NCBI RefSeq assembly: GCF_025685575.1
Contig: NZ_JAGSYD010000004.1
Coordinates: 1 to 64,000, forward strand
DNA from: Granulicella cerasi
GTDB taxonomy: Bacteria > Acidobacteriota > Terriglobia > Terriglobales > Acidobacteriaceae
Direction: 5' to 3'
DNA: 64,000 nt
Position numbers and translations under genes: made by a program. The notes beneath the pieces are model-generated. The model searched no databases. It saw nothing but the letters and a program-made list of their open reading frames with translations, and was not told the DNA's origin. Below, one piece after another: positions 23,573 to 59,766 of the stretch (positions are counted from its first letter, which is position 1; each line of letters begins with the position of its first letter).

Positions 23573-23604
23573 GAGTTGGCCCCTCGGACAGTGTGGCATA
23601 AAAA

Positions 23605-34287: not shown

Positions 34288-34338
34288 GCCGTCGGGGCAT
34301 CCGGCGGGGAAGCATCCGGGCAGAAGATGTGCCTCAGC

Positions 34339-34350
34339 GGAAACGATTCC
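34339..34350. promoter_or_regulatory. LacI-type operator GGAAACGATTCC (site 2)
   Basis: A near-perfect palindrome, with one mismatched pair next to the centre. A promoter-like pair TTCCCA (34360-34365) and TATAGT (34384-34389) lies just downstream, spaced 18 bp. It precedes the clan-A glycosidase gene by 137 bp. Confidence 0.7.
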
Positions 34351-34383
34351 ATTTTTCTCTTCCCAAGCGACGAATCTCGTGCG

Positions 34384-34389
34384 TATAGT
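34384..34389 (+). promoter_or_regulatory. Putative -10 box TATAGT of the clan-A glycosidase gene
   Basis: TTCCCA lies 18 bp upstream, giving a weak -35/-10 pair in the 199-bp gap after the double esterase. Site 2 overlaps the region just above the -35. Promoter consensus of this host is unverified. Confidence 0.4.
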
Positions 34390-34486
34390 GGCTGCTGTTT
34401 TGCCAAAGTTATTTGCCTTGGTTCTCGCTCTCCGGATAGAACGCCTGCCGGATCTTCAGCGGAGCCGGGCCAGGAAAAGGGCCGCC

Positions 34487-39746: not shown

Positions 39747-41327
39747 TTGAAGGTGCAGAAGCGGATGCCGACCATCGTACGGAGCCTGGGCACGCTGCTG
39801 ATGGCATCTGCTCTCGCGGTGACGTGCCGTGCGCAGGAGACCAAGGCTGACACCGGCGCACAGCAGACTCCGGACATCGTCGTGCAGTCACGACTTGTCG
39901 TGCTCGACATCGTGGTGACCGACAAGCATGGCGCGTTGCGCAATGACCTCACGCAGGCTGACTTCAGCATCACCGAGGACGGCACACCGCAGACCATCAC
40001 GCACTTCGAGCAGCCCGCGGCCCATCAGGTGCCGGCAGGCCGAAAGATCAACTCCACTGCTGACCTCGAACGCCTGGCACCGCAGGCACCAGCGACGATC
40101 ATCGTGCTCGACGAGTTGAACACCAGCTTCGAGGACATGGCGTACGCGCGCTTTGCGGTGAAGAAGTATCTGGAAGGCGAACCGGATGCTCTGACCGCAC
40201 CGACGATGCTCGTCGCGGTGAGCGAGAAGAAGCTGCAGGTGATCGTCGACTACACGCAGGACCGCGCCGCTCTGCAGGCGGGGCTTGCGAAACATCTGGC
40301 GCACTATCCGTGGAACATGAAGGTGGGCGGCGGACGCATGGAGCAGTTCGCCGTGTCGCTCGGCGCGCTGGAACAGGTGACCGAAGCCGCGGCAGGGCAT
40401 CCGGGGCACAAGAACGTGCTTTGGATCGGCCACGGATTTCCGGGCATCGACCTCACCGCTCAGGGGCTTGACCAGAACTCTGTCGGCGGCATCACCTCGG
40501 GCGTGCAGCAGGCGTTGAACATGATGCGTGATGCCCGCGTGACGCTGTACGCGATCGACCCTGCGCTGATGTCGTCCGAGACCGGCGTGCGCGTTACCAA
40601 CGATGCCAGCGGTTCGCAGGTCGGCGATATCGGCTCGCAAGACCCTTTCCTGAGCGATGTAAGTTTCGGCAAGCTCGCGGAGTCGAGTGGAGGAAAGCTC
40701 TTCAGCTCCCGTAACGATGTTGACCATGAGATCGCACGCAGCGCCCAGTACGGCGCCAGCTTCTACACGATCACTTATCGGCCCTCGAGCGCATCAGATG
40801 CATCGCAACGCTATCGCAAGATCAAGGTTACGTTGAGGGACCCCTCGCTGCATGCAGGCTTCCGCGACGGCTACTATGCGCGCGATGAGATCACGCATGA
40901 AAGCCGCGCCGCTCGCTCGAAGTACGACCTCGATGCTGCTTCGGAAAATCGGATGACGTACACGGGGTTCCATCTGCTGGCGGTACAGCGGCCGAATACG
41001 CCCGATCAGTTCGTGGTCGGCGTACCGCAGATGGAGATCAGTTGGAGCGAGAGCGGCGCGATGGAAGAGGCGCACCTCAAACTCGTCGTGTCAGTGTTCA
41101 ATCCGCAGGGCAAGCTGTTGCAGAAGAAGACCGAAGAGCTTACCGAACATCGGCCTGCGGAGAGCACGGCGCGCCGCGATCAGCCGGTGCGGCTGGAGGT
41201 GCAGGCGCCGCTTGCTGCAGGCGCCTCGCGCGTACGCTTCATCTTGTGGGACGCAGCATCCGGCAAGCTGGGAACGACGGAGTTGCATCTGCCCGGCACG
41301 CCGGCGGATGCGCCGGAGAAGAGATAG
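39747..41327 (+). CDS. VWFA-related acidobacterial secreted protein
   Basis: The product is 526 aa from TTG 39747 (GGGGAG upstream); ATG 39765 is an alternative. A signal peptide ends in CRAQ. The opening SRLVVLDIVVTDKHGALRND and FSITEDGTPQTITHFEQ are the core of the acidobacterial VWFA-related family (TIGR03436). The segments IIVLDELNTSFEDM, VLWIGHGFPGIDLTA and AIDPALMSSE fit the same fold with a partial MIDAS site. The function is not established; predicted secreted, protein-binding. It starts the six-gene operon that runs to the GH28 gene. Confidence 0.85.
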   Translation: MKVQKRMPTIVRSLGTLLMASALAVTCRAQETKADTGAQQTPDIVVQSRLVVLDIVVTDKHGALRNDLTQADFSITEDGTPQTITHFEQPAAHQVPAGRKINSTADLERLAPQAPATIIVLDELNTSFEDMAYARFAVKKYLEGEPDALTAPTMLVAVSEKKLQVIVDYTQDRAALQAGLAKHLAHYPWNMKVGGGRMEQFAVSLGALEQVTEAAAGHPGHKNVLWIGHGFPGIDLTAQGLDQNSVGGITSGVQQALNMMRDARVTLYAIDPALMSSETGVRVTNDASGSQVGDIGSQDPFLSDVSFGKLAESSGGKLFSSRNDVDHEIARSAQYGASFYTITYRPSSASDASQRYRKIKVTLRDPSLHAGFRDGYYARDEITHESRAARSKYDLDAASENRMTYTGFHLLAVQRPNTPDQFVVGVPQMEISWSESGAMEEAHLKLVVSVFNPQGKLLQKKTEELTEHRPAESTARRDQPVRLEVQAPLAAGASRVRFILWDAASGKLGTTELHLPGTPADAPEKR

Positions 41328-41338
41328 GAGAAACACGG

Positions 41339-43588
41339 TTGTTTTTGCTCGAACGTCGACGCAATGTTGTACTCGCTCTCACGCTCGCTGCGTGCGCTGT
41401 GGCCTCCGCGCAGAGGCAGGACGCCTACGCGCTGGTCGACCCTCGCATCGGCACGGCACACGATGGACAGACGTTCCCTGCGGTGGGCGTGCCTTTCGCG
41501 ATGACGAACTGGACGCCCGAGACGAGGCCTGCGGAGATCAAGTGTAAGTCGCCCTACTACGATGCGGACACGACGCTGACAGGCTTTCGCGGCAGCCATT
41601 GGCTGAGCGGAAGCTGCACGCAGGACTATGGCTCGGTGACAGTCATGCCCACGACCGGCGTGCTTCACGTTTCGCCGACAGATCGTGCTTCGGGCTTCCG
41701 TCACGCCAGCGAGATCATGCATCCGGGCTACTACGCTGTGAACGAAGACCGCTACCACGCGCGGGTGGAGATGACCGGATCGTCGCACGCATCGGTGATG
41801 CGCATTCATTTCGACGAGAAGACTGCGCCGCGAAATCTGATCGTGCAACCCTACGTACATGCGGGCGAAGGCTACGTCGAGGTGCGTCCCGAGGCGCATG
41901 AGATTGTCGGCTTCAACCCTGTGCATCGCATCTACATCGGAGCCGGAGAGTCTGCAGGCTTCAGCGGATACTTCGTCATTCGCTACACGGGTGAGGCTTC
42001 GGGGGCAGGCACGTGGTGCGGCACCGCTGTGCATGAAGGCGTCGATCGCCAGGAGGGCAAGGGGTGCGACGCGCTTGGTGGCTATGTGCGCTTTGGCAAG
42101 CTCGCCAAGGACACTTTGACCCTGCATATCGGCATGTCGTTTACAAGCCTCGAGGAGGCGCGCAAGAACCTGGATGCAGAGGTCGGTGCGAAGACGTTTG
42201 ACGAGGTGCGTGCGTCCACAGAAAAGTTGTGGCGCGAGTGGCTGCACCGCATCGAGGTGCAGGGCGGTACCGCTGATCAACGCGTGCAGTTCTACACGGC
42301 GCTCTATCATGCGTCGCTTTCCCCTCGCGTGGCCAGTGATGTCGACGGCACCTACAACGGCTTTGCGCAGGAAGGGAAGCTGCACAAGGCTGCGGCGGGT
42401 ACGGCATACTACGACGACTTCTCGCTGTGGGATACCTTCCGCGCGCTGCATCCGTTGCTGACCATCCTTGATCCTGAGCGCGAAGGCCAGATGGTGCAAT
42501 CGCTGGTGGACAAAGGCGAGCAGGGCGGCTTCCTGCCGATCTTTCCTGCGTGGAACAGCTATACCCAGGAGATGATCGGCGACCATGCTGTGGCGGTGAT
42601 CGGGGACGCGTATGCGAAGGGCTTGCGCGGGTTCGACGTGCAGAGCGCGTATGCGCTGGTGATGCGCAATGCGATGGGATTGCCGCCCGCAGAGGAGTAC
42701 GCAAAGGGCAAAGGGCGGCGGGCGCTGGAAAGCTACATGCACTACGGCTTCGTTCCGCTCGAGGACCACATTTACGAGGCCTTCCATCGGGATGAGCAGG
42801 TCTCACGCACACTGGAGTATGCGTACGACGACTTCGTCGCGTCACGGTTTGCGCGCGCGCTTGGCCATAACTCCGATGCCGATGTGCTGCTGATGCGTTC
42901 GCGTAACTGGCGACATGTTTTCGACCCTGCAATGGGCTTCGTGCGCGGGCGCCACGCAGACGGCTCGTGGGTATCTCCGTTTGATCCGGCAAAGCCAGCC
43001 AAGTACATCACCGAAGGCTTGCCGTGGCAGTACACCTTCTTTGTGCCGCAGGATGTTCCGGGCCTGATCCACGCGGTTGGTGGGGAGAAGGCGTTCGTCG
43101 AAAAGCTCGACGGCTTGTTCGATAAAGGTTTGTACGAGCAGGGGAATGAGCCGAGCCACGCGATTGCGTATCTCTACAACAGCGCGGGCGCGCCTGCGAA
43201 GACACAGCAGCGCGTGCATGAGATTTTGCGCACGCAGTTCACCGTTGGGGCCGCGGGGCTTCCCGGAAATGACGATGCCGGTCAGATGTCAGCATGGTAT
43301 CTGCTGAGCGCGATGGGTTTCTATCCGGTCTGTCCCGGCACGACGGCCTATGAGTTGGGCACGCCGATGTTCGAGCGCGTCACGATCCATCAGCCGTCGG
43401 GCAAGGACTTTGCGATCGAAGCTCCAGGCGCTTCGACAACGCGGTTCTATGTCGCGCAGGCAACGCTGGACGGCAAACCTCTCCATGGAACCACGGTGGA
43501 CCATGCGGACATCGTGCGTGGAGCGCGGTTGACGCTGACGACTTCGGCAGACGCTGTAAATTCCCTGGGATCGACCCCGCAACCGTAA
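41339..43588 (+). CDS. GH92 alpha-mannosidase
   Basis: The product is 749 aa from TTG 41339, 11 bp after the VWFA stop, with AGGAG 8 nt upstream. A signal peptide ends in ASAQR. GH92 hallmarks include DPRIGTAHDGQTFPAVGVPF, FRGSHWLSGSCTQDYG, GFLPIFPAWNSYTQEMIGDH and GLPGNDDAGQMSAWYLLSAM with the general-base Asp pair. GH92 enzymes are calcium-dependent exo-alpha-mannosidases acting on N-glycans and mannans. The long open frame starting at 41042 is not the real start. Confidence 0.93.
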   Translation: MFLLERRRNVVLALTLAACAVASAQRQDAYALVDPRIGTAHDGQTFPAVGVPFAMTNWTPETRPAEIKCKSPYYDADTTLTGFRGSHWLSGSCTQDYGSVTVMPTTGVLHVSPTDRASGFRHASEIMHPGYYAVNEDRYHARVEMTGSSHASVMRIHFDEKTAPRNLIVQPYVHAGEGYVEVRPEAHEIVGFNPVHRIYIGAGESAGFSGYFVIRYTGEASGAGTWCGTAVHEGVDRQEGKGCDALGGYVRFGKLAKDTLTLHIGMSFTSLEEARKNLDAEVGAKTFDEVRASTEKLWREWLHRIEVQGGTADQRVQFYTALYHASLSPRVASDVDGTYNGFAQEGKLHKAAAGTAYYDDFSLWDTFRALHPLLTILDPEREGQMVQSLVDKGEQGGFLPIFPAWNSYTQEMIGDHAVAVIGDAYAKGLRGFDVQSAYALVMRNAMGLPPAEEYAKGKGRRALESYMHYGFVPLEDHIYEAFHRDEQVSRTLEYAYDDFVASRFARALGHNSDADVLLMRSRNWRHVFDPAMGFVRGRHADGSWVSPFDPAKPAKYITEGLPWQYTFFVPQDVPGLIHAVGGEKAFVEKLDGLFDKGLYEQGNEPSHAIAYLYNSAGAPAKTQQRVHEILRTQFTVGAAGLPGNDDAGQMSAWYLLSAMGFYPVCPGTTAYELGTPMFERVTIHQPSGKDFAIEAPGASTTRFYVAQATLDGKPLHGTTVDHADIVRGARLTLTTSADAVNSLGSTPQP

Positions 43589-43613: not shown

Positions 43614-45869
43614 ATGGTCTGGCAGTGCAAATGGAAACGTTTCATGTTCGGAATGGCGCTGGGGTGCTGCGGTGCGATGGCCGCTCGTGCGCAGAACTCG
43701 CGCTGGGTAGATCCGTACATCGGCAGCGAAGGCGGCGGGCATGTCTTTGTGGGCGCGGCGGTGCCCTTCGGAATGGTGAAGGCCGGTCCGGATGTAGGTG
43801 ACAACACCGGCAATGGCGGCTGGCTTCCCGAAGGAAAGATCAACGGCTTCAGCCAGACGCATGTCACCGGCACAGGCGGTGGTGCGAAGTACGGCAACGT
43901 GCTGATTCAGCCGACGGTGGGCCGCGTCAGCGCACAGGACGCCGGGTCCCTGCGCTCTGGCGAGCATGTGGAGGCGGGGCTCTATCGCGTTCGTCTCGAC
44001 CGCTACGCCACTCAGGTCGCGGTGACGACGAGTTCGCGCGCGGCGCTCTATGAGCTGCAGTTTCCTCGCGGCGGTGAGCACGGTCTGCTGATCGATGCGG
44101 GCCACTGTCTCAGCAGCTATCCGAACCAGAACGAAGATCAGCGCACGGTGGCTTCGACCGTGCGCGTCGTTAGCGATCACGAGATCGAAGGCTCGACCTC
44201 GGTGGCGGGCGGATGGAACTTCCAGAAGAAGCCGTATCGCGTCTTCTTCAGCGTGCTGACGGATACCGCGATTGCGACGCAGAGCGGATGGCATGATGAG
44301 CAGCACGATCTGCCGTTGAAGGTGGGCGACGCCCTACAGGGCGTGAAGTCCGGCGTTTGGCTGGGCTTTGGTGCGAAGTCGGCCGCGTTGGTGCATGTGA
44401 AGGTGGGCATCTCGTTTCTCAGCGAACAGCAGGCACGGGCCAACGCAGAGCAGGAGATTGTGGGCTTCGACTTCGCAGCTGCGCTGGCCAAGGCACGCCA
44501 TGCGTGGGACGCGGCGCTCGACACGATTGAAGTCGAGGGCATCGACGATACGCATCGCAGGATCTTCTACACGGCGATGTATCACATGATGTTGATGCCG
44601 ACCGACCGCACCGGCGAAAACCCCGCGTGGCACTCGAGTGAGCCTTACTACGATGACTTCTATGCGATCTGGGACACCTTCCGCACTTCGGGACCGCTGC
44701 TCACGCTGATTGCGCAGGACCGCCAGGCCGGCATGGTGCGTGCGTTGATCGACATCTATCGCCACGAGGGTTGGCTTCCCGACGCACGCAGCGGTAACAG
44801 CAATGGGCGCACGCAGGGCGGCAGCAATGCGGAGTTCGAGATCACCGACGCGTACGTGAAGGGGCTCCCGGGCATCAACTGGGAGGACGCGTTCAAGGCG
44901 GTACAGCATGACGCCGAGGCGACTCCCGATGACCAGAGGATGGAGGGCCGCGGGGGCATCGAGGACTGGAAGTCGAAGGGCTATCTCACCCTCGAGGGTG
45001 TGGACCGCCCGGGCTCCAAGCAGATGGAGTATGCGGCGGACGACTACGAGGTGGCTCTGCTGGCCAGAGGGCTTGGCAAGCAAGCGGAGTATGCGAAGTA
45101 TCTGCAGCGTTCGCGCAACTGGGAGAGGCTCTGGAACGATGCGTACGAAGAGGACGGCGTGCGTGGCTTCATCTGGCCTCGGCACAAGGATGGAAGCTGG
45201 CGCGCGAAGTTCAACGGAGCCGAGGGTTGCAGCTGGGGCGGAGAGACGTTCTACGAGGGGAACTCGTGGACATACTCTACCTTCGTTCCGCAGGACAACG
45301 CACGCCTGGTTGCGAAGGCCGGTGGAGGCGATGCGTTTGCGCACAGGCTCGATCTGTTTCTCAGCAACAAGGACCGCTACGACGTCGGCAACGAGCCGGG
45401 TTTCATGGCGCCGTATCTCTATCTGTGGACGCGGCACGCTGCCGAGACTGCGGATCACCTGCGCGCGATCCTGGCGGCGAGCTACAACGCGAGCCGCTCC
45501 GGTATTCCGGGCAACGACGACTCCGGTGCGATGTCGAGCTGGTATCTTTTCGGCGTGATGGGCTTCTACCCCAACGCGGGACAAGATGTGTATCTCATCG
45601 GCAGTCCATCGGTGCCGCGGACGGTGCTTCATCTCGCGCAGGGCAAGAGCTTCGTCATCGAAGCCAAGGGTGTTTCCGAAGAAAACAAGTATGTAGACCA
45701 TGCAGAGCTGAATGGAAAGCCGTTGGACCGTGCATGGTTCAGGCATGGTGAGATCGCCCGAGGAGGAACGCTGGTGCTGCACATGACCGCAAAGCCCAGC
45801 GCCTGGCCGACGGGAGCTTTTCCGCCATCCGCTTCGGATGGTGTGCAGGAAGTGGCAGAAGGGAAGTAA
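43614..45869 (+). CDS. GH92 alpha-mannosidase, second copy
   Basis: The product is 751 aa from ATG 43614. A signal peptide (KWKRFMFGMALGCCGAMAARAQ) is followed by VDPYIGSEGGGHVFVGAAVPFGMVKAG. GH92 motifs include GWLPEGKINGFSQTHVTGTG, GWLPDARSGNSNGRTQGGSN and GIPGNDDSGAMSSWYLFGVMG. It is clearly diverged from the first copy, so probably a different linkage specificity. Operator site 5 lies inside its first codons (43633-43644). An ATG at 43644 is an alternative start. The next gene starts 3 bp after its stop. Confidence 0.93.
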   Translation: MVWQCKWKRFMFGMALGCCGAMAARAQNSRWVDPYIGSEGGGHVFVGAAVPFGMVKAGPDVGDNTGNGGWLPEGKINGFSQTHVTGTGGGAKYGNVLIQPTVGRVSAQDAGSLRSGEHVEAGLYRVRLDRYATQVAVTTSSRAALYELQFPRGGEHGLLIDAGHCLSSYPNQNEDQRTVASTVRVVSDHEIEGSTSVAGGWNFQKKPYRVFFSVLTDTAIATQSGWHDEQHDLPLKVGDALQGVKSGVWLGFGAKSAALVHVKVGISFLSEQQARANAEQEIVGFDFAAALAKARHAWDAALDTIEVEGIDDTHRRIFYTAMYHMMLMPTDRTGENPAWHSSEPYYDDFYAIWDTFRTSGPLLTLIAQDRQAGMVRALIDIYRHEGWLPDARSGNSNGRTQGGSNAEFEITDAYVKGLPGINWEDAFKAVQHDAEATPDDQRMEGRGGIEDWKSKGYLTLEGVDRPGSKQMEYAADDYEVALLARGLGKQAEYAKYLQRSRNWERLWNDAYEEDGVRGFIWPRHKDGSWRAKFNGAEGCSWGGETFYEGNSWTYSTFVPQDNARLVAKAGGGDAFAHRLDLFLSNKDRYDVGNEPGFMAPYLYLWTRHAAETADHLRAILAASYNASRSGIPGNDDSGAMSSWYLFGVMGFYPNAGQDVYLIGSPSVPRTVLHLAQGKSFVIEAKGVSEENKYVDHAELNGKPLDRAWFRHGEIARGGTLVLHMTAKPSAWPTGAFPPSASDGVQEVAEGK
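43633..43644. promoter_or_regulatory. LacI-type operator GGAAACGTTTCA (site 5)
   Basis: Perfect ten-base palindrome GAAACGTTTC within ATGGAAACGTTTCATG. It lies inside codons 7-11 of the second GH92, so it can control an internal promoter of the operon or block elongation. Confidence 0.6.
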
Positions 45870-45872
45870 ACG

Positions 45873-48800
45873 ATGTCGATCTTACGAACGAATTTTCGTG
45901 AGAAGGATGCGCCGCATCTGGCGAAGGCCGCGCAGCAGTTGGGGATGCAGTTTGCGGAGGCGCAGAAGGTCGCCGACGCGATTGCTGCACCGCCCGGAGA
46001 TGTAGTGTTCTGGGAGGCGGGAGGCGAGTTCTCCGACGCGCAGATCACGCAGCTACAGGAGTCTGTGCGGCTGGGCGCGAACTTCATCCTGTCGCTTTCG
46101 CGCAATTCGCTCAAGCTTCCGGCACGCCTGAGCGCGATGCTGCCCACGATCGGTTGGGGCGCGCAGATCGGCTACATCAAGTCGCAGAATGATCGCCCGA
46201 TCGAAGCTGGTTCGTGGGACAAGTCGGTGTTTGCGCAGGATGAGCCGCAGGGACTGCATCTGCCGTATTTCTTTCCGATCCGTCCGGTCTCGGCCGTGGA
46301 GCGCGGCGAAGGACGCTACGAGCGCTTTGATCGCCGCATCCCGAAGATGGACCGCACGGTGAAGCCGCACAACGATGCGTGGACAAGGCCGCTGCTCAAT
46401 CACGACTGGCAGGTACGCGTGAGTGCGAGCGATCGTGCAGCGCAACCGCTGATTGTCACGGGTCGTTACGGCGCCGGGCGCGTGGTCGTGCTGGCGAGTT
46501 CAGTGATTGGATTCGACGCCGCGCCTCACGCGGAGGCGATCTGGTCTGCGTTGTTGCGCTGGGTGAGCGAAAAGCGTGCGCTGCCGAGCGCGGCTACGGC
46601 GGCTGAAACCGCAGCCATCAAGCTCTCAGTGGCCTCGAATGGGCCGCACGTCACGGTACAACTCGAGAACGCGGGGAGCTCGCCTGCAGAGGTGCGCGTC
46701 TTCGCACGCGTGCTCACGTGGGAGGGCGCGATGATCGGCGACGTGGTGCCTGCGAAGCCTGCGGTCACCGTGCCTGCGGGCGGCAAGGCGACCGTGGACC
46801 TGCAGCTGCCGCGTGCGTCGAGCATGGGGTATCAGGCCCTGGACGCGCGCGAGTCGCTGCAGGTACGCGTGGCAGCGCTTTCTGCTGATGAATCCGTCGT
46901 GATGGCGGAGCGCCGTTTGAGTGTCGACCTCGAACCCGCGCTGCGCGTGCGTCTGCACACAGACTCCGTTGGTTCGATTCCGACGCCGTTTCATAAGCCT
47001 GACTCGAAGAACTTCGGCGCGTTTCGCAACCGTATGGGTGCGGCTGTCGGGAACTATGCGTATCCGCCTGGCGCTACGGTGAACGCCAGTGTGACGGTTG
47101 TGAACGGGTTGCGAAATCTCGCGCCATTCGCGGCGGTTGTGGACCTCGTCGACAAGACGAACCAGTCCGTGATGGCGTTGAACGATGAAGCGACGAACTA
47201 TCGCAAGGGCCCGGTGGACGCGATCAACGCGTGGGCATCGTGGCAGGGCAAGGGCAACTCCGACAACGTGCTGTTGTTCATGTTCGCAAAGCCGGTGACG
47301 GTGGCGTCGTTCACGATCGTGGGCTGCGATGGCTCTTCGGTCGATGGCCAGGAGCATAATCCGTTGCTCGCGATCGTGCAGTTCGACGACAAGGAAGTGC
47401 TGCGCGCTCCGCTGGAGGACGCGTTCATCGCGGGCCATGGGCAGGCGTATGTTCCGCTGAAGCAGCCTGCGTCGGTGACGAAGTTGACGATCCGCTTTCC
47501 GTGGGTTGCGGCGCAGCCGGGCAAGCGTCGACAGGCCCCGTGGCTGGGCGACATTCGCATCTCCGGTTGGGTGGGAGAAGCGCCGCCATCAGCGAAGGAG
47601 ACGGTGGAAGTGACGCTTGAGAACGCGATGACCGGCGAGAAGAAGTCGCTGCTCAAGCAGGAGGTTGCTCTGGATGGTGGCACGCGACAGTCGCTGAAGC
47701 TGCAGTGCAAACTGCCGGACGATGCGGAACTCGGCTTCTACCGCTTGACGGCCACGGCAGGCCGCAGTCACTCGTCGATGCCGCTGCTGGTGACGCGCGG
47801 AGACAAGGCGCTGAAGCCGATCACCGACATCATTCCAGACGACAGCGCAGCGTTGGGATTCATCGTGACGCGCGGCTTTCGCAACGTCTTTAATACCGGC
47901 ACAGGCACGGCGGAGATCATCTCCGGCTGGGGGCAGCCGGATGATCTGGTGTGGGCTTACAGTCGGCAGTTGAAACAGATTCGTCAGCAGGCGCGCACCG
48001 CGTCTTCGCGGCTCTATCTTTCTGAAGACGACATGCGCCACTACTCTTCGCCGTGGAAGTCCTTCGCGGGCGGGCAGTTCTTCTTCGACGTTGCGACACC
48101 GCTGCTGGTGGAGCGCATGAAGGCGCATCCGAACTGGTCGAAGTCGCCGATGGTGCATCTGGATTTCTCCGACCGCTGGGACACCGGGCCGGACACCACC
48201 GCGCTGCATGGATGGCAGGACTACGTTGAGTTCGATCGTCATCTGCGTCGTAGCGGCAAACCTGGCTTGAAGGGCAAGACGAGGAGCCAGGTGGGCGCGG
48301 AGATTCACGCCGAGCATGAGGCGGAGTGGCAGTCCTGGCACCTGGAGCGCTATTGCACGGCGGTGAAAGGGATGCGCGACGCATTCGCCGCCGAGAAGAA
48401 GGACCTGACGATCATTGCGCAGGGACTGCCGATCGTTGCAGGCGCAGACGCCGCTGCTGCGCTGGCACCGACGATCCGCGGCATGAGTGACGATTCGACG
48501 TGGGGAATGATCTCCGACAGCTCTGCGCTGACGACCGGGCGCCAGCTTGGCGAGATCGCCTTCAACCCTGCGTGGAAGGTCTCGACACAGGGCATGTGGG
48601 GCTATCCGTCGAGCGTTCTGAACAACGAGCACTGGCACTCGCCGGTGTCGACCACGGAGCCCTCGCGGCGCGTGATGTATGACCGCGCGTGGCGCGGCAT
48701 GGTGTGGGACGACGGCAGCTTCCGCTCGGTCTATACGTACGGTTACAACTCCAACGTGGGCATCGCGTACACGATGAACGACAACGACTGGCAGCAGTGG

Positions 48801-49532
48801 TGGCTGATGCTGGAGCGTCATTCGCTGCTGTCGCCGGAGGCTCCGCTCGGTGCCGGGCTTGTGGTCAGCAGCAGCTTCTATGCAGACCCCGCGCACGTGA
48901 AGTTCAGTTGCGGCGACGCGCTGGAAGCCAACGAGCTGATTCCCGTGTACGCGCGGGCGTTCGAGTATCTGAGCAACGCCGGCGTTCCGCTGGCGTTTGG
49001 TGCGAACCTGCGCACGCTGGACAAATGGAAGGGCGATGCGCCGTTGGTGCTGCTCAACCCGGCGATGTTCAACGAGGCCGAGGTGGCCAATGTTGCCGCG
49101 TTGCAGAAGCGTGGCGTGAAGATAATCGCGTTCGGCGGCGGTGAAGGCGGTGCGGGCATCGAGGCGATGAAGAAGCTCGGCGTGCCGCTGCTGGCTGCAG
49201 ATCCGATGAGCTTCAACGCGCTCGACGCGATGCGGCTTGAGCCGGAGATTACGAAGGCCCTGGCGTTGCCGTTGCAGTTTCCTGCAGGCGCTTCCGGTTA
49301 CGGTTTTCGCTCCGGCGCGACGAGTCTGGTGGTCGTCGAAGACTGGTGGGAGAAGGGACGTGCGTTGCAGGTGCGCGTGCGTGTGCAGAATCCTGCCGCG
49401 AAGTCTGCGCAGGCCTGCGGCGTGAACGATCATGTGGCCTTCGACGTGAAGCGCGAGGGTGATTTCTGGGTGGTGAATATGCCGGTGCGGCCTGCGGATG
49501 CAGAGATCATCGCACTGAGGGAGGTGGCCTGA
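45873..49532 (+). CDS. 1219-aa orphan protein, possible multidomain glycoside hydrolase
   Basis: No family is recognised. It starts MSILRTNFREKDAPHLAKAA without a signal peptide. Residues 1-230 look like an alpha/beta Rossmann-like domain with a GRYGAGRVVVLASS strand, as in ThuA or glutaminase-like modules. Residues 245-350 and 560-660 are beta domains. Residues 370-560 are a discoidin-like beta-sandwich (VASFTIVGCDGSSVDGQEHN). Residues 670-1000 have the look of a TIM barrel (VTRGFRNVFNTGTG, MVHLDFSDRWDTGPD, IIAQGLP, STQGMWGYPSSVLNNEHWH). Residues 1060-1150 resemble a GH42-type trimerisation domain (PLVLLNPAMFNEAEVANVAA). Its genes on both sides are glycan enzymes, and the next gene overlaps its stop by TGATG. 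Confidence 0.7.
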   Translation: MSILRTNFREKDAPHLAKAAQQLGMQFAEAQKVADAIAAPPGDVVFWEAGGEFSDAQITQLQESVRLGANFILSLSRNSLKLPARLSAMLPTIGWGAQIGYIKSQNDRPIEAGSWDKSVFAQDEPQGLHLPYFFPIRPVSAVERGEGRYERFDRRIPKMDRTVKPHNDAWTRPLLNHDWQVRVSASDRAAQPLIVTGRYGAGRVVVLASSVIGFDAAPHAEAIWSALLRWVSEKRALPSAATAAETAAIKLSVASNGPHVTVQLENAGSSPAEVRVFARVLTWEGAMIGDVVPAKPAVTVPAGGKATVDLQLPRASSMGYQALDARESLQVRVAALSADESVVMAERRLSVDLEPALRVRLHTDSVGSIPTPFHKPDSKNFGAFRNRMGAAVGNYAYPPGATVNASVTVVNGLRNLAPFAAVVDLVDKTNQSVMALNDEATNYRKGPVDAINAWASWQGKGNSDNVLLFMFAKPVTVASFTIVGCDGSSVDGQEHNPLLAIVQFDDKEVLRAPLEDAFIAGHGQAYVPLKQPASVTKLTIRFPWVAAQPGKRRQAPWLGDIRISGWVGEAPPSAKETVEVTLENAMTGEKKSLLKQEVALDGGTRQSLKLQCKLPDDAELGFYRLTATAGRSHSSMPLLVTRGDKALKPITDIIPDDSAALGFIVTRGFRNVFNTGTGTAEIISGWGQPDDLVWAYSRQLKQIRQQARTASSRLYLSEDDMRHYSSPWKSFAGGQFFFDVATPLLVERMKAHPNWSKSPMVHLDFSDRWDTGPDTTALHGWQDYVEFDRHLRRSGKPGLKGKTRSQVGAEIHAEHEAEWQSWHLERYCTAVKGMRDAFAAEKKDLTIIAQGLPIVAGADAAAALAPTIRGMSDDSTWGMISDSSALTTGRQLGEIAFNPAWKVSTQGMWGYPSSVLNNEHWHSPVSTTEPSRRVMYDRAWRGMVWDDGSFRSVYTYGYNSNVGIAYTMNDNDWQQWWLMLERHSLLSPEAPLGAGLVVSSSFYADPAHVKFSCGDALEANELIPVYARAFEYLSNAGVPLAFGANLRTLDKWKGDAPLVLLNPAMFNEAEVANVAALQKRGVKIIAFGGGEGGAGIEAMKKLGVPLLAADPMSFNALDAMRLEPEITKALALPLQFPAGASGYGFRSGATSLVVVEDWWEKGRALQVRVRVQNPAAKSAQACGVNDHVAFDVKREGDFWVVNMPVRPADAEIIALREVA

Positions 49533-50614
49533 TGCGTCGTCGTGATTTCATAGCTGCTGCAGGCGGCGGGTTGCTCGCTTCGGTCAATCCGCCGTCGATC
49601 GGCGCGTTTGTAAACGCGGTCGCAGGGCCGGCGCGTGGCCTTCTCTTCGGTGTGGATGCGCGCGTGAGCGCGAAGCTGGCCACGGCGCTGGCCTCGCTGC
49701 AGGAAGCTGCCCCGACGCATCCTCTGCTGCGCGCGATGGGAGCAACGGGCAAGGTCCCGGTGAGCGACACGAGGAAGCTGTTGGCTTCGCCGAAGGACCT
49801 GGCCTACAACCACCTGCTGCTGATCGGTCGTCCCGACGATCCACTGATCGTCGCCGCGTGGCAGCGTGAAGCGGAGTTCTCCGCCAAGGGGGCTTACATC
49901 TACGGCTTCGGTGGCTTCAGCGGCGATGTCGGGTACGTGGAGTCAGACCGCAGCCCGTTCTTGCATTCGCTCGTCGTGCCGAGCGCGCCTTACGAAACAG
50001 AAGTCATCACGATCACCGGCACGACCGACGAGGGCATTGCGCTGGCGTTGCGCGCGTTCCTGGATCGTGGCCTGGTGAACGGCGTGGTTGCGGCCAATGG
50101 CTGGAAACGCACAGAGACCACGTTGCTGGACCGTGATCCTTTGCCGCCAAAGTTCGAGCTACCGGTGGAGCTTGCGCCCGAAACGCTGGAGGGCTACACG
50201 CGTGTGGCCTACGTGCAGGCGTCGGAAGATGAGTATCGCGGCGTGCTCGAAGACACGAGTCTGGAGCCGTTGCAGATGGCGCGCTTCAAGTACTATCGCG
50301 CGGGCGCGTGGGATGGCAAAGGCGCGGCTGCTGCATTCGACAATTACTCCTTCGGTTTGCATCGACGAGCGTATGGCAATACGCTTTGGCTGGCGAGGTT
50401 CGCCAGCGAGAGTGACGCATCTGCGGCTGCGCCGAAGATCGCCGCCACCGCAAAGTTGACCAGGAGCGGAGAGCGTTGGACCGGCGTGCAGCCGGCGTAT
50501 GGCTTCGCACCCCCGGGACAGCAGAGCGCGCCGGCCGGACCGTTGCAGCTTTGGCAGCAGAAGGAGTGGGTGTTGATGAGTACGCTGGATTCGACGAAGG
50601 GAAGTGCGTCGTGA
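49532..50614 (+). CDS. Tat-exported protein of unknown function
   Basis: The product is 360 aa. MRRRDFIAAAGGGLLAS is a twin-arginine signal. The rest is acidic and alpha/beta (HLLLIGRPDDPLIVAAWQRE, GYVESDRSPFLHSLVVPSAP, TGTTDEGIALALRAFLDRGL) with no family I recognise. The ATG overlaps the previous stop (TGATG), and its stop overlaps the GTG of the GH28 gene, so the three are tightly coupled. Its product probably works on the same substrate. Confidence 0.7.
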   Translation: MRRRDFIAAAGGGLLASVNPPSIGAFVNAVAGPARGLLFGVDARVSAKLATALASLQEAAPTHPLLRAMGATGKVPVSDTRKLLASPKDLAYNHLLLIGRPDDPLIVAAWQREAEFSAKGAYIYGFGGFSGDVGYVESDRSPFLHSLVVPSAPYETEVITITGTTDEGIALALRAFLDRGLVNGVVAANGWKRTETTLLDRDPLPPKFELPVELAPETLEGYTRVAYVQASEDEYRGVLEDTSLEPLQMARFKYYRAGAWDGKGAAAAFDNYSFGLHRRAYGNTLWLARFASESDASAAAPKIAATAKLTRSGERWTGVQPAYGFAPPGQQSAPAGPLQLWQQKEWVLMSTLDSTKGSAS

Positions 50615-52254
50615 GCGGAGAACAGAAGCTGCTGGACCGCCGTCGGTTTCTCGCGGCCACGGGCATGGCGGGCGCGATGAGCATTACCGCCGCGGCCCAG
50701 GGCAAGGTCGTTGCGGCGTCGAGCGAAGGCGCTGTCGCTGACGGGCGCACGCTGAATACGGTTGCGCTGCAGCGGGCGATCGATCGTGCGCACGAAGCTG
50801 GTGGCGGCGTCGTGGTGCTCACGCCGGGCGTGTACCTCAGCGGCGGCTTGCAACTGCGCAGCAACGTTACGCTGCGTCTTGAGGCGGGATCGGAGCTGCT
50901 GGGTAGTCCTCGAACGGAGGACTACCAGTATCATCCGGGCCCTGCTGAAGAAGGCGATGCGAACGGTCGTCACCTGATCTTCGCGATCGACGCGGAGAAC
51001 ATCGCGGTCGAAGGACTTGGCACGATCGACGGCAACGGCGCACACTTCTGGCATCGCAAGGGCCGCCCCCAGGCGAAGCCCGAAGACATGTGGGCCGACG
51101 TGGTTGCGTGGGATTACGAAGCTGCTACGCCCCGGCGTCCGGCGCCTATGCTTGAGTTTGCCCGCTGCCGCAACGTGCGTGTCGAGGGCGTCACGCTGGC
51201 GAATGCGCCGAGTTGGACGATGCGTCCGATCGCTTGTGAGTCCGTCTGGATTCACGGCGTGCGCGTTCGCAATCCCATCTTTGCGCCGAACACGGATGGC
51301 ATGGACATCACCGCCAGCCGCAACGTTTTCATCTCTGACTGCGACATCGCCACGGGCGATGATGCGATCTGCATCAAGAGTGAGAACCCCTACGGCGAGC
51401 TGCTGCCCACCAAGAACATCACGATCACCAACTGCGTGTTCACGACCTGCTGCAACGGTCTGAAGCTGGGCACGGCGACATATGGCCGCTTCGAGAACAT
51501 CACGTTTTCAAACTCCGTGATCTACAACGAAGCATCATCGCCGTTAAATGAACGCGTGATCGCAGGCATTGCCCTGGAGATGGTCGATGGTGGATCGATC
51601 GAAGGCGTTGCGATCTCCAACATCGTGATGGAGAACGTGCGTACGCCGCTGTTCGTGCGACTTGGCGAGCGACACAAGGGCCGAGGCAGCTTCGTGCGGG
51701 ACATCAAGATCAGCGGCATTCAGGCGCGCGGTGCGCTGCTGACGAGTTCGATCATGGGCGTCGAAGGGATGCCGGTCGAGAACGTCTCGCTGCGGGATAT
51801 CTCGATCGCAACCGTGGAGAAGGGCGAACGCAAATGGGCGCATGGAATGCCCCCAGAGATGCGCGAGTTCTATCCCGAGGCGCGCATGTTTGGCAGGCTT
51901 CCCGCTGCGGGTTTGTATGTGCGTCATGCGAAGGGGATCTCGGTCAGTGCCTTCAGCCTGAACTCGGAGACTCCGGACCCTCGACCGGTGATCGCGACCG
52001 AGGATGTATCGGATGTGGAATTGCTGCACGTGAAGGCAAGCGCTGCGGCCGAAGGCGAGCCTCTGCTGCGCTTACGCAATACGCAGAACGCCTGGGTAAG
52101 CGGAACGCGCGCACCTGCGGGAACTGCGGTGTTCGTCGAAGTTGCGGGCGCGACTTCGAGCGGGATTGCGCTGCACGGCAACGAGACGAGCAGCGCGGCG
52201 AAGGTCGTTGCCTTTGCAGAAAACGCGAAGGCGGAGGCGGTTACCGGGGCCTGA
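50611..52254 (+). CDS. GH28 polygalacturonase-like enzyme
   Basis: The product is 547 aa from GTG 50611 (AAGGGAAG upstream). A Tat-like start, LDRRRFLAATGMAGAM, precedes the right-handed beta-helix. GH28 motifs: NTDGMD (catalytic Asp) and TGDDAICIK (two catalytic Asp). The third motif reads CCNGLKLGT instead of the usual G-H-G, and RVIAGIALEM sits at the later R-x-K position. It should hydrolyse galacturonan, rhamnogalacturonan or related galacturonosides; the changed third motif puts it in a bacterial subgroup. It ends the operon. A bidirectional terminator follows. Confidence 0.88.
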   Translation: MSGEQKLLDRRRFLAATGMAGAMSITAAAQGKVVAASSEGAVADGRTLNTVALQRAIDRAHEAGGGVVVLTPGVYLSGGLQLRSNVTLRLEAGSELLGSPRTEDYQYHPGPAEEGDANGRHLIFAIDAENIAVEGLGTIDGNGAHFWHRKGRPQAKPEDMWADVVAWDYEAATPRRPAPMLEFARCRNVRVEGVTLANAPSWTMRPIACESVWIHGVRVRNPIFAPNTDGMDITASRNVFISDCDIATGDDAICIKSENPYGELLPTKNITITNCVFTTCCNGLKLGTATYGRFENITFSNSVIYNEASSPLNERVIAGIALEMVDGGSIEGVAISNIVMENVRTPLFVRLGERHKGRGSFVRDIKISGIQARGALLTSSIMGVEGMPVENVSLRDISIATVEKGERKWAHGMPPEMREFYPEARMFGRLPAAGLYVRHAKGISVSAFSLNSETPDPRPVIATEDVSDVELLHVKASAAAEGEPLLRLRNTQNAWVSGTRAPAGTAVFVEVAGATSSGIALHGNETSSAAKVVAFAENAKAEAVTGA

Positions 52255-55746: not shown

Positions 55747-58473
55747 GTGAAGAATTTCCTGCGCACCATGCTGTGCCTGTCGCTTGTCCCCGTCGCCGCC
55801 GCGCAGCACTCTGTACCGCGTGCCACTGAAGGCACTGCCGAACGTTATGATTCGACCGCGGCCGCAGCGGCCGCGGTGGTGTTCGACCACGCACGCTTCA
55901 CCGTGTTGACGCCGCAGCTGATCCGCCTGGAGTGGTCAGCAGATGGCACCTTCGAAGACCGCGCGTCGTTCACCTTTCTCAACCGCCATCTCGCGGTGCC
56001 GAAGTTTTCACAGCAGCTGACGGGCAGCGGTGACACGCGCACACTGACGATCGACACAGGCGCACTGAAGCTGACCTATCAGCCCGCAAAGGGGGACGAA
56101 GGCTTCACCAGCGCAAACCTTTCCATCGCGCTCGACGTAAATGGGAAGTCGGTCTCCTGGAAGCCCGGCATGGCGCCCAGTGGCAATCTGCTGGGTACGG
56201 CACGCACGCTCGATGGGGTGAAGGGCGATGACGTAAAGCTGGAGCAGGGGCTGCTCTCACGCGATGGCTGGACGTTGGTCGATGACTCCTCGCGCCTGCT
56301 CTTTGACTCTGCGGATTTCTCGATGAGCAAGGGCCTCGCCAGCAACTGGCCGTGGTTTGCGCAGCGCAAGCCCGGCAAGCGTGTGGACTGGTACTTCTTC
56401 GGCTACGGCCATGAGTACGCGCGCGAGATGGGCGATTACGTTCGCGTGGCCGGACGCATCCCGCTGCCGCCACGCTACGCTTTCGGCATGTGGTGGTCGC
56501 GCTACTGGGCGTATAGCGATCAGGAGTTGAACGAACTTGTCAGCGGTTTCCGCTCGCGCAACCTGCCGCTGGATGTACTCGTCATCGACATGGACTGGCA
56601 CATCGCCGTGCGTGGCAATGAGCAGGACCCGTCGGGCCACCGGAAGGGCTGGACCGGCTACACCTGGAACAAGAACCTCTTCCCCGAACCGGAGTTGTTC
56701 CTGCATCGCCTGCATGAGGAAGGCGTGCACGCGACGCTGAATCTTCATCCGGCGTCGGGTGTGCAGACCTTCGAGGCTCCGTACGCGGAGATGGCGCGCG
56801 CCATGGGCCAGACCGACGGCAAGTACGTGCCGTTCCAGATCACGGACCGCAAGTTTGCCGAGAACTACTTCGACATCCTGCATCATCCGCTGGAGAAGCA
56901 GGGCATCGATTTCTGGTGGCTCGACTGGCAGCAGGAAGCGCATACGGATGTGGCCGGGGTGGATCCGACCTTCTGGCTGAACTATCTTCACTTCACCGAC
57001 CAGGAGCGCGAGGGCAAGCGCCCGATGCTCTTCCATCGCTGGGGTGGTCTCGGCAACCATCGCTACCAGATCGGCTTCTCCGGCGACACCATCTCGAAGT
57101 GGGAGTCGCTGGCCTTTCAGCCGAACTTCACAGCAACCGCAGCGAACGTCGGCTATGCGTACTGGAGCCACGACATCGGCGGCCACATGCCCGGTGCGAT
57201 TGAGCCGGAGTTGTATCTGCGCTGGCTGCAGTTCGGCGCGTTCAGCCCCATCCTGCGCACGCACACCACAAAGAACCCGGAGGCCGAGCGCCGCGTGTGG
57301 GCGTATCCGGAGCCGTACAGCGACATCATGGAAGCGACGTTGCGCCAGCGCGCTGCATGGATCCCTTACATCTACACGGAGGCACGACGCACATACGACA
57401 CCGGCGTGGCGTTCCTGCGGCCGCTGTACTACTCCTGGCCGGAGCAGAACGAGGCTTACGACGCGAAGAACGAGTTTCTCTTCGGCGACAACGTCATCGT
57501 GGCGCCGGTCACCTCGCCGGTCGACAGTGTCTCCGGGCTTGCTCAGGAGAGCCTCTGGCTGCCGCAGGGTGAGTGGATCGAGCAGTCCAGCGGCAGGCAC
57601 CTGCAGGGCGGCGCGCGGATGACGCGCGAGTACTCTCTTGAGCAGACGCCGGTCTTCATGCGTCCCGGAACGATCGTGCCCATGCAGCCGCCGATGCTGC
57701 ACGTGGGCGAGAAGGCCGTGGACCCGCTGATTGTCCGCGTGGCCGCGCTCGACGACAAGCAGCAGAGCAGCTACTCACTCTATGAGGATTCGAGCGAGGG
57801 CCGCGGCTACGAAGACGCCGCCTATACACGCACAGAGTTGTCTGCCTCGCGCGAGGGTGCGGTCACTACGCTCGTCGTTCATGCGGCGAAGGGGAGCTAT
57901 GTTGGCATGGTGCGCTCGCGTGCGATCCAGCTCGAGCTGCCGGGCGACTGGCCGCCGACTGCGGTGAGCGTCAACGGCAAGCGCCAGGAGCTCGTACGCG
58001 ATCCGAAGGCCAGTGGCTGGCGTTTCGAAGGCAACACGCTGACGACGATCGTGCTCACCGATTCCTTCTCGACCGCGCACGACGTGACGATCCGTGTGGA
58101 GCGCGATCCGAAGCTCGTCGCGCAGTCTTCGCTGCTCGATGGCTTTGCGGGAAAGATGGTCGACCTGCGCCGAGCCTATGCGCAGATGAACGATATCTGG
58201 CCGGTGAATGATCTGGTCGCGGCCTCGCAGACGGGGGACCGCATCGGCTATCGACCGGAGCAGGCGCTACAGGAGGTGAAGGCCTTGCCGGGTCTCATCA
58301 CCAGCGCACAGCGAGGTGTGGAGGAGTTCGCGGTGCGCGAAGACAAGGACTGGAAGGTCGCGCCGAAGCCAAAGGATGACGAAGATGCCGCAGCACAGCA
58401 TCGCAAGCAGGCTGCGAACCAGGTTCGCCTGAAGCGCGCGCGTGCAGCGCTGGTGGCTGCTGCGAAGAACTAA
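55747..58473 (+). CDS. GH31 alpha-glycosidase
   Basis: The product is 908 aa from GTG 55747 (GGAG upstream); the ATG at 55627 would give a protein without a proper signal peptide at its start. The signal peptide ends in VAAAQ. The barrel begins with RYAFGMWWSRYWAYSDQELN. The nucleophile Asp is in FWWLDWQQE and the acid/base Asp in GFSGDTISKWESL. The family includes alpha-glucosidases and alpha-xylosidases. A C-terminal helical extension of about 100 residues (PGLITSAQRGVEEFAVRE on) is longer than usual. It converges with the permease gene, overlapping its stop by 4 bp. Confidence 0.92.
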   Translation: MKNFLRTMLCLSLVPVAAAQHSVPRATEGTAERYDSTAAAAAAVVFDHARFTVLTPQLIRLEWSADGTFEDRASFTFLNRHLAVPKFSQQLTGSGDTRTLTIDTGALKLTYQPAKGDEGFTSANLSIALDVNGKSVSWKPGMAPSGNLLGTARTLDGVKGDDVKLEQGLLSRDGWTLVDDSSRLLFDSADFSMSKGLASNWPWFAQRKPGKRVDWYFFGYGHEYAREMGDYVRVAGRIPLPPRYAFGMWWSRYWAYSDQELNELVSGFRSRNLPLDVLVIDMDWHIAVRGNEQDPSGHRKGWTGYTWNKNLFPEPELFLHRLHEEGVHATLNLHPASGVQTFEAPYAEMARAMGQTDGKYVPFQITDRKFAENYFDILHHPLEKQGIDFWWLDWQQEAHTDVAGVDPTFWLNYLHFTDQEREGKRPMLFHRWGGLGNHRYQIGFSGDTISKWESLAFQPNFTATAANVGYAYWSHDIGGHMPGAIEPELYLRWLQFGAFSPILRTHTTKNPEAERRVWAYPEPYSDIMEATLRQRAAWIPYIYTEARRTYDTGVAFLRPLYYSWPEQNEAYDAKNEFLFGDNVIVAPVTSPVDSVSGLAQESLWLPQGEWIEQSSGRHLQGGARMTREYSLEQTPVFMRPGTIVPMQPPMLHVGEKAVDPLIVRVAALDDKQQSSYSLYEDSSEGRGYEDAAYTRTELSASREGAVTTLVVHAAKGSYVGMVRSRAIQLELPGDWPPTAVSVNGKRQELVRDPKASGWRFEGNTLTTIVLTDSFSTAHDVTIRVERDPKLVAQSSLLDGFAGKMVDLRRAYAQMNDIWPVNDLVAASQTGDRIGYRPEQALQEVKALPGLITSAQRGVEEFAVREDKDWKVAPKPKDDEDAAAQHRKQAANQVRLKRARAALVAAAKN

Positions 58474-59714
58474 CCCTCGAGCACGGGGCCGCTCGCAGCG
58501 AGAGGCTGCGGGCGGCCTTTGTACTTCAGGCCGAAGAAGATCGACGGCAGATAGCAGAGTGCGGGCAGAAGGAACGAGAAGCGCAGTCCTGCTGCATCGG
58601 CGATGTGGCCTTGCACGGACGGCAGCAAAGCACCGCCGACGAGCGCCGCGACGAACAGGCCAGAGCCGGCGTCGATCAGCGGACCGAGGCCGTCGAGCGC
58701 GCTGGTGACGAGGATCGGCACCATAAGCGAGTTGCAAAGGCCGACGGCGAGCATCAACGCTGCGGCCGTGACGCCCGTGGAGCTTACCGACAGCAGGACG
58801 CAGAGCGTAGCCGTGGTGGCGAGAACGGCGAGGATGCGCTGTGGGTTAGCGCGGCGTAGCAACGGGAATCCCACGAAGCGGCCGATCATGGCCCCGCCGT
58901 TGTACAGCGAGGCGAGGAACGCCGCATGTTCTCGCGTCGCTCCGAGCGTGGAGCCGAGGCAGAGATAGTTGATCAATAGACCGCCGATCGCGATCTCCGC
59001 GCCGACATAGAAGAACATGGCGCCGACGCCAAAGAGCAGGCGACGTTGCTGGAAGAGTGCGCGATAGCTTACGTCCTGGCGTGAGGCCTGTGCGGGGCGC
59101 AGATCAGGAAGCCTGGCCACGGCGACGACGATGACGAGAGCGAACAGCCCCGCGCCGATCGCCAGATACGGCGTGCGAAATCCAGCCGAGCCTGCATGGG
59201 AAGCCGTGAGGCGCGGCAGGATCGCCCATGCGCCGAAGCTCGGTGCAAGCATGGAGCCAAGTGAGTTGACGGCGAGTGCAAGGCTGTAGCGGCTGGGCGC
59301 GTTGGACGCATCTCCAAGCAGCGAGACGTAGGGCGAGGCCGCGGTCTGCAACGCGGCGATGCCCGCTGCCATAAGGCTGAGGGCGGCGAGAAAAAGTTGG
59401 AACGACGCGTGGCTGGAGGCGCGCGCAAAGACGAGCGTGGCGCAGGCCATCACCGCAAGGCTCACCGTCAACGCGTGACGATACCCGAGGCGTGAGACCA
59501 TCCGGCTTGCGGGGTAGGAGACCGCAAAGCAGGTGAGGTAGAAGGTGAGTTGAACAGCGGTGGATTCACTGTAGCTGAGATGAAAGACCTGCCGAAAAGC
59601 GCTGACGAGAACATCGTTCAGGGAGACGAGGAAGCCCCAGGTGAAGAACAGTGAGGTGACGAGCACGACGGAGGCGCGAAGCGAGAGCGAGTTCGAGGGG
59701 GCAGGAGCAGTCAT
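58470..59714 (-). CDS. FHS-type sugar:H+ symporter (FucP/GluP-like MFS)
   Basis: The product is 414 aa with about 12 transmembrane segments. Family signs include SLFFTWGFLVSLNDVLVS in helix 1, the YPASRMVSRLGYRHAL loop and ALQTAASPYVSLLGD. It belongs to the fucose/glucose/galactose permease group of the major facilitator superfamily and imports monosaccharides released by the enzymes. The gene diverges from the CBM9-tailed glycosidase with a 52-bp gap; operator site 7 sits just beyond that gap. Confidence 0.9.
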   Translation of the reverse strand: MTAPAPSNSLSLRASVVLVTSLFFTWGFLVSLNDVLVSAFRQVFHLSYSESTAVQLTFYLTCFAVSYPASRMVSRLGYRHALTVSLAVMACATLVFARASSHASFQLFLAALSLMAAGIAALQTAASPYVSLLGDASNAPSRYSLALAVNSLGSMLAPSFGAWAILPRLTASHAGSAGFRTPYLAIGAGLFALVIVVAVARLPDLRPAQASRQDVSYRALFQQRRLLFGVGAMFFYVGAEIAIGGLLINYLCLGSTLGATREHAAFLASLYNGGAMIGRFVGFPLLRRANPQRILAVLATTATLCVLLSVSSTGVTAAALMLAVGLCNSLMVPILVTSALDGLGPLIDAGSGLFVAALVGGALLPSVQGHIADAAGLRFSFLLPALCYLPSIFFGLKYKGRPQPLAASGPVLEG

Positions 59715-59766
59715 GGGTGGCAGAAATCGTTGTCAGTTACCCGGCGGAGCAAGTATAGTTCCAGCG

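Follow-up and report, generated by a model that had tools for sequence, protein, structure and literature searches.

The window analysed here is a stretch of 64,000 nucleotides from Granulicella cerasi (contig NZ_JAGSYD010000004.1, positions 1 to 64,000, forward strand). At positions 45873-49532 it carries a gene for a large protein of 1219 amino acids (aa) that belongs to an unclassified family and has no signal peptide. Directly downstream, and overlapping it, lies the gene for a 360-aa partner protein with a predicted twin-arginine translocation (Tat) signal. The conserved pairing of the two genes is strong evidence that their products function together, and the pair is considered below as a candidate glycan-active unit. 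Both genes lie among glycoside hydrolase (GH) genes.

The locus

The pair and its immediate neighbours are as follows.

45873..49532, plus strand: large protein, 1219 aa; signal-less, unclassified and multidomain, subunit 1 of the pair
49532..50614, plus strand: partner, 360 aa; predicted Tat signal MRRRDF, with aa 32-190 modelled in the fold of the GH67/GH115/GH84/GH20 N-terminal accessory domain
41207..43588, plus strand: second GH92 protein (Pfam GH92; start approximate)
43614..45869, plus strand: GH92 protein with an N-terminal signal peptide (Pfam GH92)
50629..52254, plus strand: GH28 protein with a Tat-like signal, LDRRRFLAATG (Pfam GH28; start approximate)

The frame of the large gene is open over all 1219 aa (132.8 kDa), as the first-pass annotation of this DNA had reported. 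Its guanine-plus-cytosine content is 0.64, 0.47 and 0.79 at codon positions 1, 2 and 3 respectively, and its differences from the gene of an 81%-identical relative number 182, 92 and 551 at the same positions. These two patterns mark the large gene as real. The reported TGATG overlap with the next gene is exact, at 49530-49534. The annotation had also placed the gene between GH92 and GH28 genes; a GH92 gene does lie directly upstream, but the next gene downstream is that of the partner, which the annotation had passed over, and the GH28 gene follows only after it.

The N-terminus of the large protein contains no signal peptide, again as first reported. The accompanying suggestion that the start had been misread can be dismissed in G. 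cerasi. The upstream GH92 gene ends with TAA at 45867-45869, followed by ACG and the ATG of the large gene, and an upstream start is impossible because this in-frame stop lies two codons before the ATG. The GH92 gene and the large gene share a frame, with only TAA ACG ATG between them (45866-45875). A readthrough fusion of the two proteins was rejected, since the two frames differ in the 81% relative and the arrangement is not conserved.

Relatives and the two-gene module

Sampling covered the Acidobacteriota, together with one close-relative scan of genome contigs. Two relatives of the large protein were found among 60 related genomes, a close one at 81% and a distant one at 42%; the second is listed in a named collection too, as Granulicella sp. 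S156. Six full-length members, G. cerasi included, were detected when 398 genomes of the family were searched with a profile, and a search of one genus added a seventh. The seven members, with 38-82% identity to the large protein, all belong to one bacterial family. No full-length member was found outside this family in approximately 390 genomes of the phylum, and the plasmid and viral collections held no relative. A profile of the core and C-terminal part, searched against 386 genomes of the phylum to E 0.1, returned the members and short chance-like matches only. Two short profile matches, L097 (GGDEF-like) and L098, were unrelated by inspection. Weak matches at residues ~186-278 in many genomes were VWA/GATase-like membrane proteins, which have one domain in common with the large protein and are not whole-protein relatives.

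In every one of the seven members the large gene stands directly 5' of a homologue of the partner gene (~360 aa), with a stop-to-start distance of -11 to +2 nucleotides. Within the 398-genome sample, the partner profile identified exactly the six genomes that hold the large gene; the large-gene profile additionally listed a 95-residue single-domain match of the VWA/GATase-like kind in genome G764. The two protein trees agree except at one fork, which the partner tree leaves unresolved. The pairing, the shared six genomes and the congruent trees are therefore strong evidence that both proteins work together as one two-gene module. They may also form a physical complex.

No signal-type N-terminal hydrophobic segment was detected on any of the seven large proteins, even when the reading was extended upstream as far as the nearest stop in frame. 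Each of the seven partners starts with RRRDF or RRRF, a twin-arginine motif in which R3, R4 and F6 are invariant; the seventh partner begins with MRRRDF. The Pfam TAT_signal model matched the partner in three of six members (best E 0.006). The missing signal of the large protein is most likely explained by the obligate, Tat-signalled partner encoded next door. HybOC and PaoABC are established examples of such hitchhiker export: in both, a subunit lacking a signal is likewise encoded beside a Tat-signalled one (PMC4273604). They differ in being redox enzymes with cofactors, and co-export of the pair described here is a prediction. A targeted search of the open-access literature found no report of a Tat-hitchhiking glycoside hydrolase. 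The downstream GH28 protein also starts with a Tat-like signal, and Tat export of glycosidases may thus be common at this locus.

Architecture of the large protein

An AlphaFold (AF2) model of aa 40-1219 was built from an alignment of six sequences. Its mean predicted local distance difference test (pLDDT) score is 56.5, falling to ~25 over much of aa 643-1024, with better flanks. The domains assigned from the model and from profile comparison are listed below.

45993..46607, plus strand: GATase1-like α/β domain, aa 41-245 (hhalign)
46608..46958, plus strand: β-sandwich, aa 246-362, which joins the front domain in the match to the GH42 GATase and C-terminal unit
46986..47582, plus strand: discoidin/CBM32-like galactose-binding fold, aa ~372-570, core aa 412-570 (VIA); well conserved
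47583..47807, plus strand: small MalQ_N-type β-sandwich, aa 571-645 (Pfam PF21226, E 6.8e-6)
47808..48842, plus strand: Trp-rich core, aa 646-990, a probable β/α (barrel-like) catalytic module; top conservation, low-confidence model
48843..49529, plus strand: α/β (Rossmann/GATase-like) domain and terminal β-sandwich, aa 991-1219 (AF2 model)

The first-pass annotation had proposed a Rossmann-like front, a discoidin-like sandwich, a barrel-like middle and a GH42-like trimerisation rear. The first two were recovered. The front is a GATase1-like α/β domain that aligns by hhalign with VWA/GATase-like membrane proteins (P 94.8) and, above column shuffles, with the GATase-like tail of GH42 (P 45, E 2e-4). 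In the full-length hhalign comparison, aa 48-309 match the GH42 GATase-like and C-terminal unit with P 70 and E 4e-5, the score of 53.1 comparing with a maximum of 23.7 in 20 column shuffles. The discoidin region gives VIA Z scores of 13-16 over ~135 residues, most rows aligning 118-139 residues at 2.2-3.3 Å.

The other two proposals fared less well. The rear of the protein, modelled with a pLDDT mostly of 65-90 from ~aa 1030 onward, is an α/β domain with a β-sandwich that has no GH42 profile similarity (hhalign P 0.1); the resemblance to the GH42 tail sits at the front instead. Profile comparison of the front and rear α/β units gave no signal (P <= 0.8) for the idea that they arose by internal duplication. 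A barrel in the middle was not established, the pLDDT of the core being ~25, and is plausible from the β/α alternation in the model and sequence.

This core, aa 646-990, is the most conserved part of the protein, with a mean pairwise identity of 55% compared with 25-47% in all other segments. Of its 345 columns, 100 are invariant, among them 15 Trp and ten acidic residues (E681, D690, D691, D720, D767, D788, D873, D874, E929 and E989). D767 and D873/D874 prompted consideration of a putative GH-D-like active site, with Asp on β4 and β6.

The claim that the protein matches no recognised family holds. NCBIfam returned nothing, no PDB match by sequence was kept, and the sole Pfam match above threshold was MalQ_N at aa 576-641 (26.8 bits; cut-off 24.1 bits), which was matched in two of six members. 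Across the seven members, Pfam gave nothing significant for the core and C-terminal part. Beyond MalQ_N, the sequence searches with this protein and its relatives (NCBIfam, Pfam, PHROGs and PDB) yielded only noise. A PDB match to an 'AI-designed TIM barrel' (E 1e-9) was discounted, as its best stretch, ~aa 1050-1090, lies outside the core and probably reflects a composition match to designed repeats.

Searches aimed at individual glycosidase families gave the same result. Glyco_hydro_106 (PF17132) had no match in six members at E <= 10, and neither the GH42 barrel (Glyco_hydro_42, PF02449) nor the GH151/GHL6 model (PF14871) was matched in the members; GH92 domains were not matched in the large protein (hhalign P <= 1.3), and GHL6 reached P <= 5 against it. 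By hhalign, the core showed nothing against GH106, GH42, GHL6 and GH92 proteins of related genomes (P <= 3), with P 0.3 against 15 GH106 proteins and P 0.2 against the GH42 barrel. The large protein is a member of an unclassified family with an unusual combination of known parts, for which the proposed label of a new glycoside hydrolase class is plausible.

The partner protein

The predicted model of the 360-aa partner has a pLDDT of 74. Residues 32-190 superimpose on the N-terminal accessory domain of GH115 and GH67 enzymes with VIA Z scores of ~9-10 over 110-128 aligned residues. The same fold is seen in GH84, GH20, GH138 and BcsB; the last of these is the first-ranked Foldseek match of the domain (E 5e-3; VIA Z 9). 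An S-layer anchoring domain is matched with Z 8.6. Comparison with GH115 and GH20 sequence profiles gave no signal above shuffles, and the likeness is one of fold only. Residues 211-356 form a small α/β unit with weak likeness to PknH/TiME (Z 6-7.5), and the 360-aa model contains no catalytic barrel behind the accessory domain. In GH67, GH115, GH84 and GH20 enzymes, a domain of the same fold is fused before the catalytic barrel, whereas here it is found on a separate, Tat-signalled protein without a barrel. This suggests a split arrangement, in which the accessory domain and the catalytic part would reside on the partner and the large protein respectively.

Genomic contexts

The first-pass annotation had described the large gene as part of a glycosidase operon. 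This description fits three of the seven members; the other four are located in polysaccharide-assembly clusters. In G. cerasi and its 81% relative, the order is GH92-GH92-pair-GH28 with a GH31 gene nearby (the neighbours in the relative were assigned by inspection), and in genome G108 a GH92 gene lies upstream of the pair. In G196, a gene for a Wzx-type flippase adjoins the pair, and Wzz, glycosyltransferases and acyltransferases are encoded in the cluster. Glycosyltransferase and acyltransferase genes accompany the pair in G742. G010 has a glycosyltransferase gene; by inspection, it also has genes for acyltransferases and a flippase. In G782, the pair stands directly behind Wzx- and Wzy-like genes, identified by inspection only. 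The G782 gene after the pair (L048, 1081-2088, minus strand) codes for a Tat-signalled metallophosphoesterase-like protein, also by inspection.

In the midpoint-rooted, seven-tip tree of the large protein, the members linked to GH92 group in a single, fully supported nested clade. This is suggestive of an older exopolysaccharide (EPS) setting from which the glycosidase setting was derived. As the glycosidase setting appears derived, substrate guesses drawn from GH92 and GH28 alone may mislead. Sugar-active enzymes are common in EPS clusters, and PslG, AlgL and PelA are likewise encoded within polysaccharide-synthesis clusters (PMC9075953). These three differ from the present pair in architecture and export arrangement, and no sequence relation to it was seen.

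Proposed mechanism and alternatives

The reading favoured here, with a probability of roughly 0.5, is that the large protein is a glycan-active, signal-less subunit that is exported in folded form with its Tat-signalled partner. A role with glycans is proposed because of the discoidin fold, the GH42-tail match, the fold of the partner, the conserved Trp-rich core and the GH92/GH28 and EPS contexts. The large protein would fold in the cytoplasm and bind the partner made from the overlapping gene, whose Tat signal would then carry the folded complex across the inner membrane. There, the discoidin and β-sandwich domains may hold a glycan, while the Trp-rich core would serve as the active or binding centre that cleaves or modifies it. 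The partner would bring an accessory domain of the kind fused before the barrel in GH67, GH115, GH84 and GH20. Ancestrally, the pair probably trimmed, released or modified exopolysaccharide made by the cell itself, as PslG, AlgL and PelA do in their clusters; in the G. cerasi clade, the pair appears to have come to stand beside GH92, GH28 and GH31 genes for glycan breakdown.

Several points weigh against this proposal. The core has neither a confident fold nor a profile link to the GH families tried, which leaves its enzyme function putative. The computed mass of a 1:1 complex, ~168-171 kDa, exceeds the upper size of ~150 kDa quoted for Tat cargo (PMC6708511). Moreover, some hydrolases of EPS clusters, such as PslG, are described as intracellular (PMC9075953), so that a missing signal is not in itself a sign of hitchhiking.

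A more specific form of the proposal is offered only tentatively. It describes a new family of split, cofactor-free polysaccharide-active enzymes, in which the catalytic subunit would reach the periplasm only as a Tat hitchhiker on a GH67/GH115-type accessory subunit. The family would have arisen in Wzx/Wzy EPS clusters and later been recruited to a glycan-degradation locus.

It is doubtful, although better placed than the remaining alternatives, that the large protein is a new-class cytoplasmic glycosidase. Such an enzyme would split imported oligosaccharides or lipid-linked polysaccharide intermediates, with the Tat partner exported alone and the operon merely shared. The absence of a signal from all seven large proteins fits this reading, and so does the likeness of the front unit to the tail found in GH42, a family that includes cytoplasmic enzymes. 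A sugar transporter of the GluP/FucP kind (major facilitator superfamily) is encoded at 58473-59714, and PslG, described as intracellular, offers a precedent. However, two proteins of independent activity, one of them exported, would not be expected to pair obligately or to have congruent trees, and an architecture of this size with discoidin and β-sandwich domains is found more typically in extracellular enzymes.

Nor is it likely that the pair is a non-catalytic scaffold or assembly factor, that is, a structural or chaperone-like glycan-binding pair for polysaccharide assembly or anchoring. The match of the partner domain to BcsB of the cellulose machine and to the S-layer anchoring domain is consistent with such a role, as are the many binding-type domains and the four members in polysaccharide-assembly clusters. 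Yet conservation is far higher in the core than in the binding domains, the ten invariant acids of the core are what an active site would be expected to show, and the pair also occurs beside degradative GH92 and GH28 genes.

The remaining alternative, which overlaps the others as to the site of action, is a divergent member of GH106, GH42 or GH151/GHL6 that has drifted beyond the reach of Pfam. The top Foldseek match of the large-protein model is the GH106 rhamnosidase BT_0986 (5mqm, E 1.3e-10), GH42 and GH151 enzymes follow at E ~1e-5, and the discoidin region aligns with GH106 by hhalign at a score of 34 (shuffle maximum 24). Nevertheless, membership is improbable, because TM-scores are only 0.14-0.31 overall and the core is of low confidence, so that the matches are read as common accessory-domain architecture, and because the core has no profile similarity to these families and the GH42-like part sits at the front. 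The structure prediction and Foldseek search that the first-pass annotation had proposed as a check are taken to have matched accessory domains of GH106, GH42 and GH151.

GH106 α-L-rhamnosidases (BT_0986, RHA-P) are likewise large and multidomain, and combine the best Foldseek matches with weak profile similarity in the discoidin region; on the other side, the TM-score is only 0.14-0.16, the core shows no similarity and the Pfam GH106 model is unmatched in the large protein. The catalytic module of GH106 is a (β/α)8 barrel with two catalytic Glu and a Ca site, with which the core of the large protein, at a pLDDT of ~25, allowed no residue alignment. The GH151/GHL6 match, 6tvk, has a TMt of 0.31. 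GH42 β-galactosidases of the A4 type likewise have a GATase-like domain followed by a β-sandwich, but there the unit follows the barrel, whereas in the large protein it precedes the discoidin domain and the core.

If the favoured proposal is correct, the carbohydrate-active proteins gain a family not yet characterised, and Tat hitchhiking gains an unusual example, a cofactor-free protein with a probable role on glycans. The two-gene unit is small, self-contained and testable, and in the Acidobacteriota, an abundant group of soil bacteria, it bears on the reason for sugar-active enzymes being encoded within polysaccharide-synthesis clusters.

Other features of the window

A second orphan glycosidase candidate lies at 59641-62742 (plus strand). 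This 1033-aa protein has a weak CBM9 tail but otherwise belongs to no family of Pfam or NCBIfam, and it contains VEVWNEPWE, a motif resembling the acid/base motif of clan GH-A. At 34130-36847 (plus strand), a 905-aa protein without a Pfam match carries the C-terminal anchoring domain 'lipo-invert' (NCBIfam NF058595, E 1e-13). Positions 1-23600 hold runs of small phage-like open reading frames, recognised by eye, which end with an integrase-like frame at 22352-23599 and probably represent a prophage to the left of the glycosidase region.

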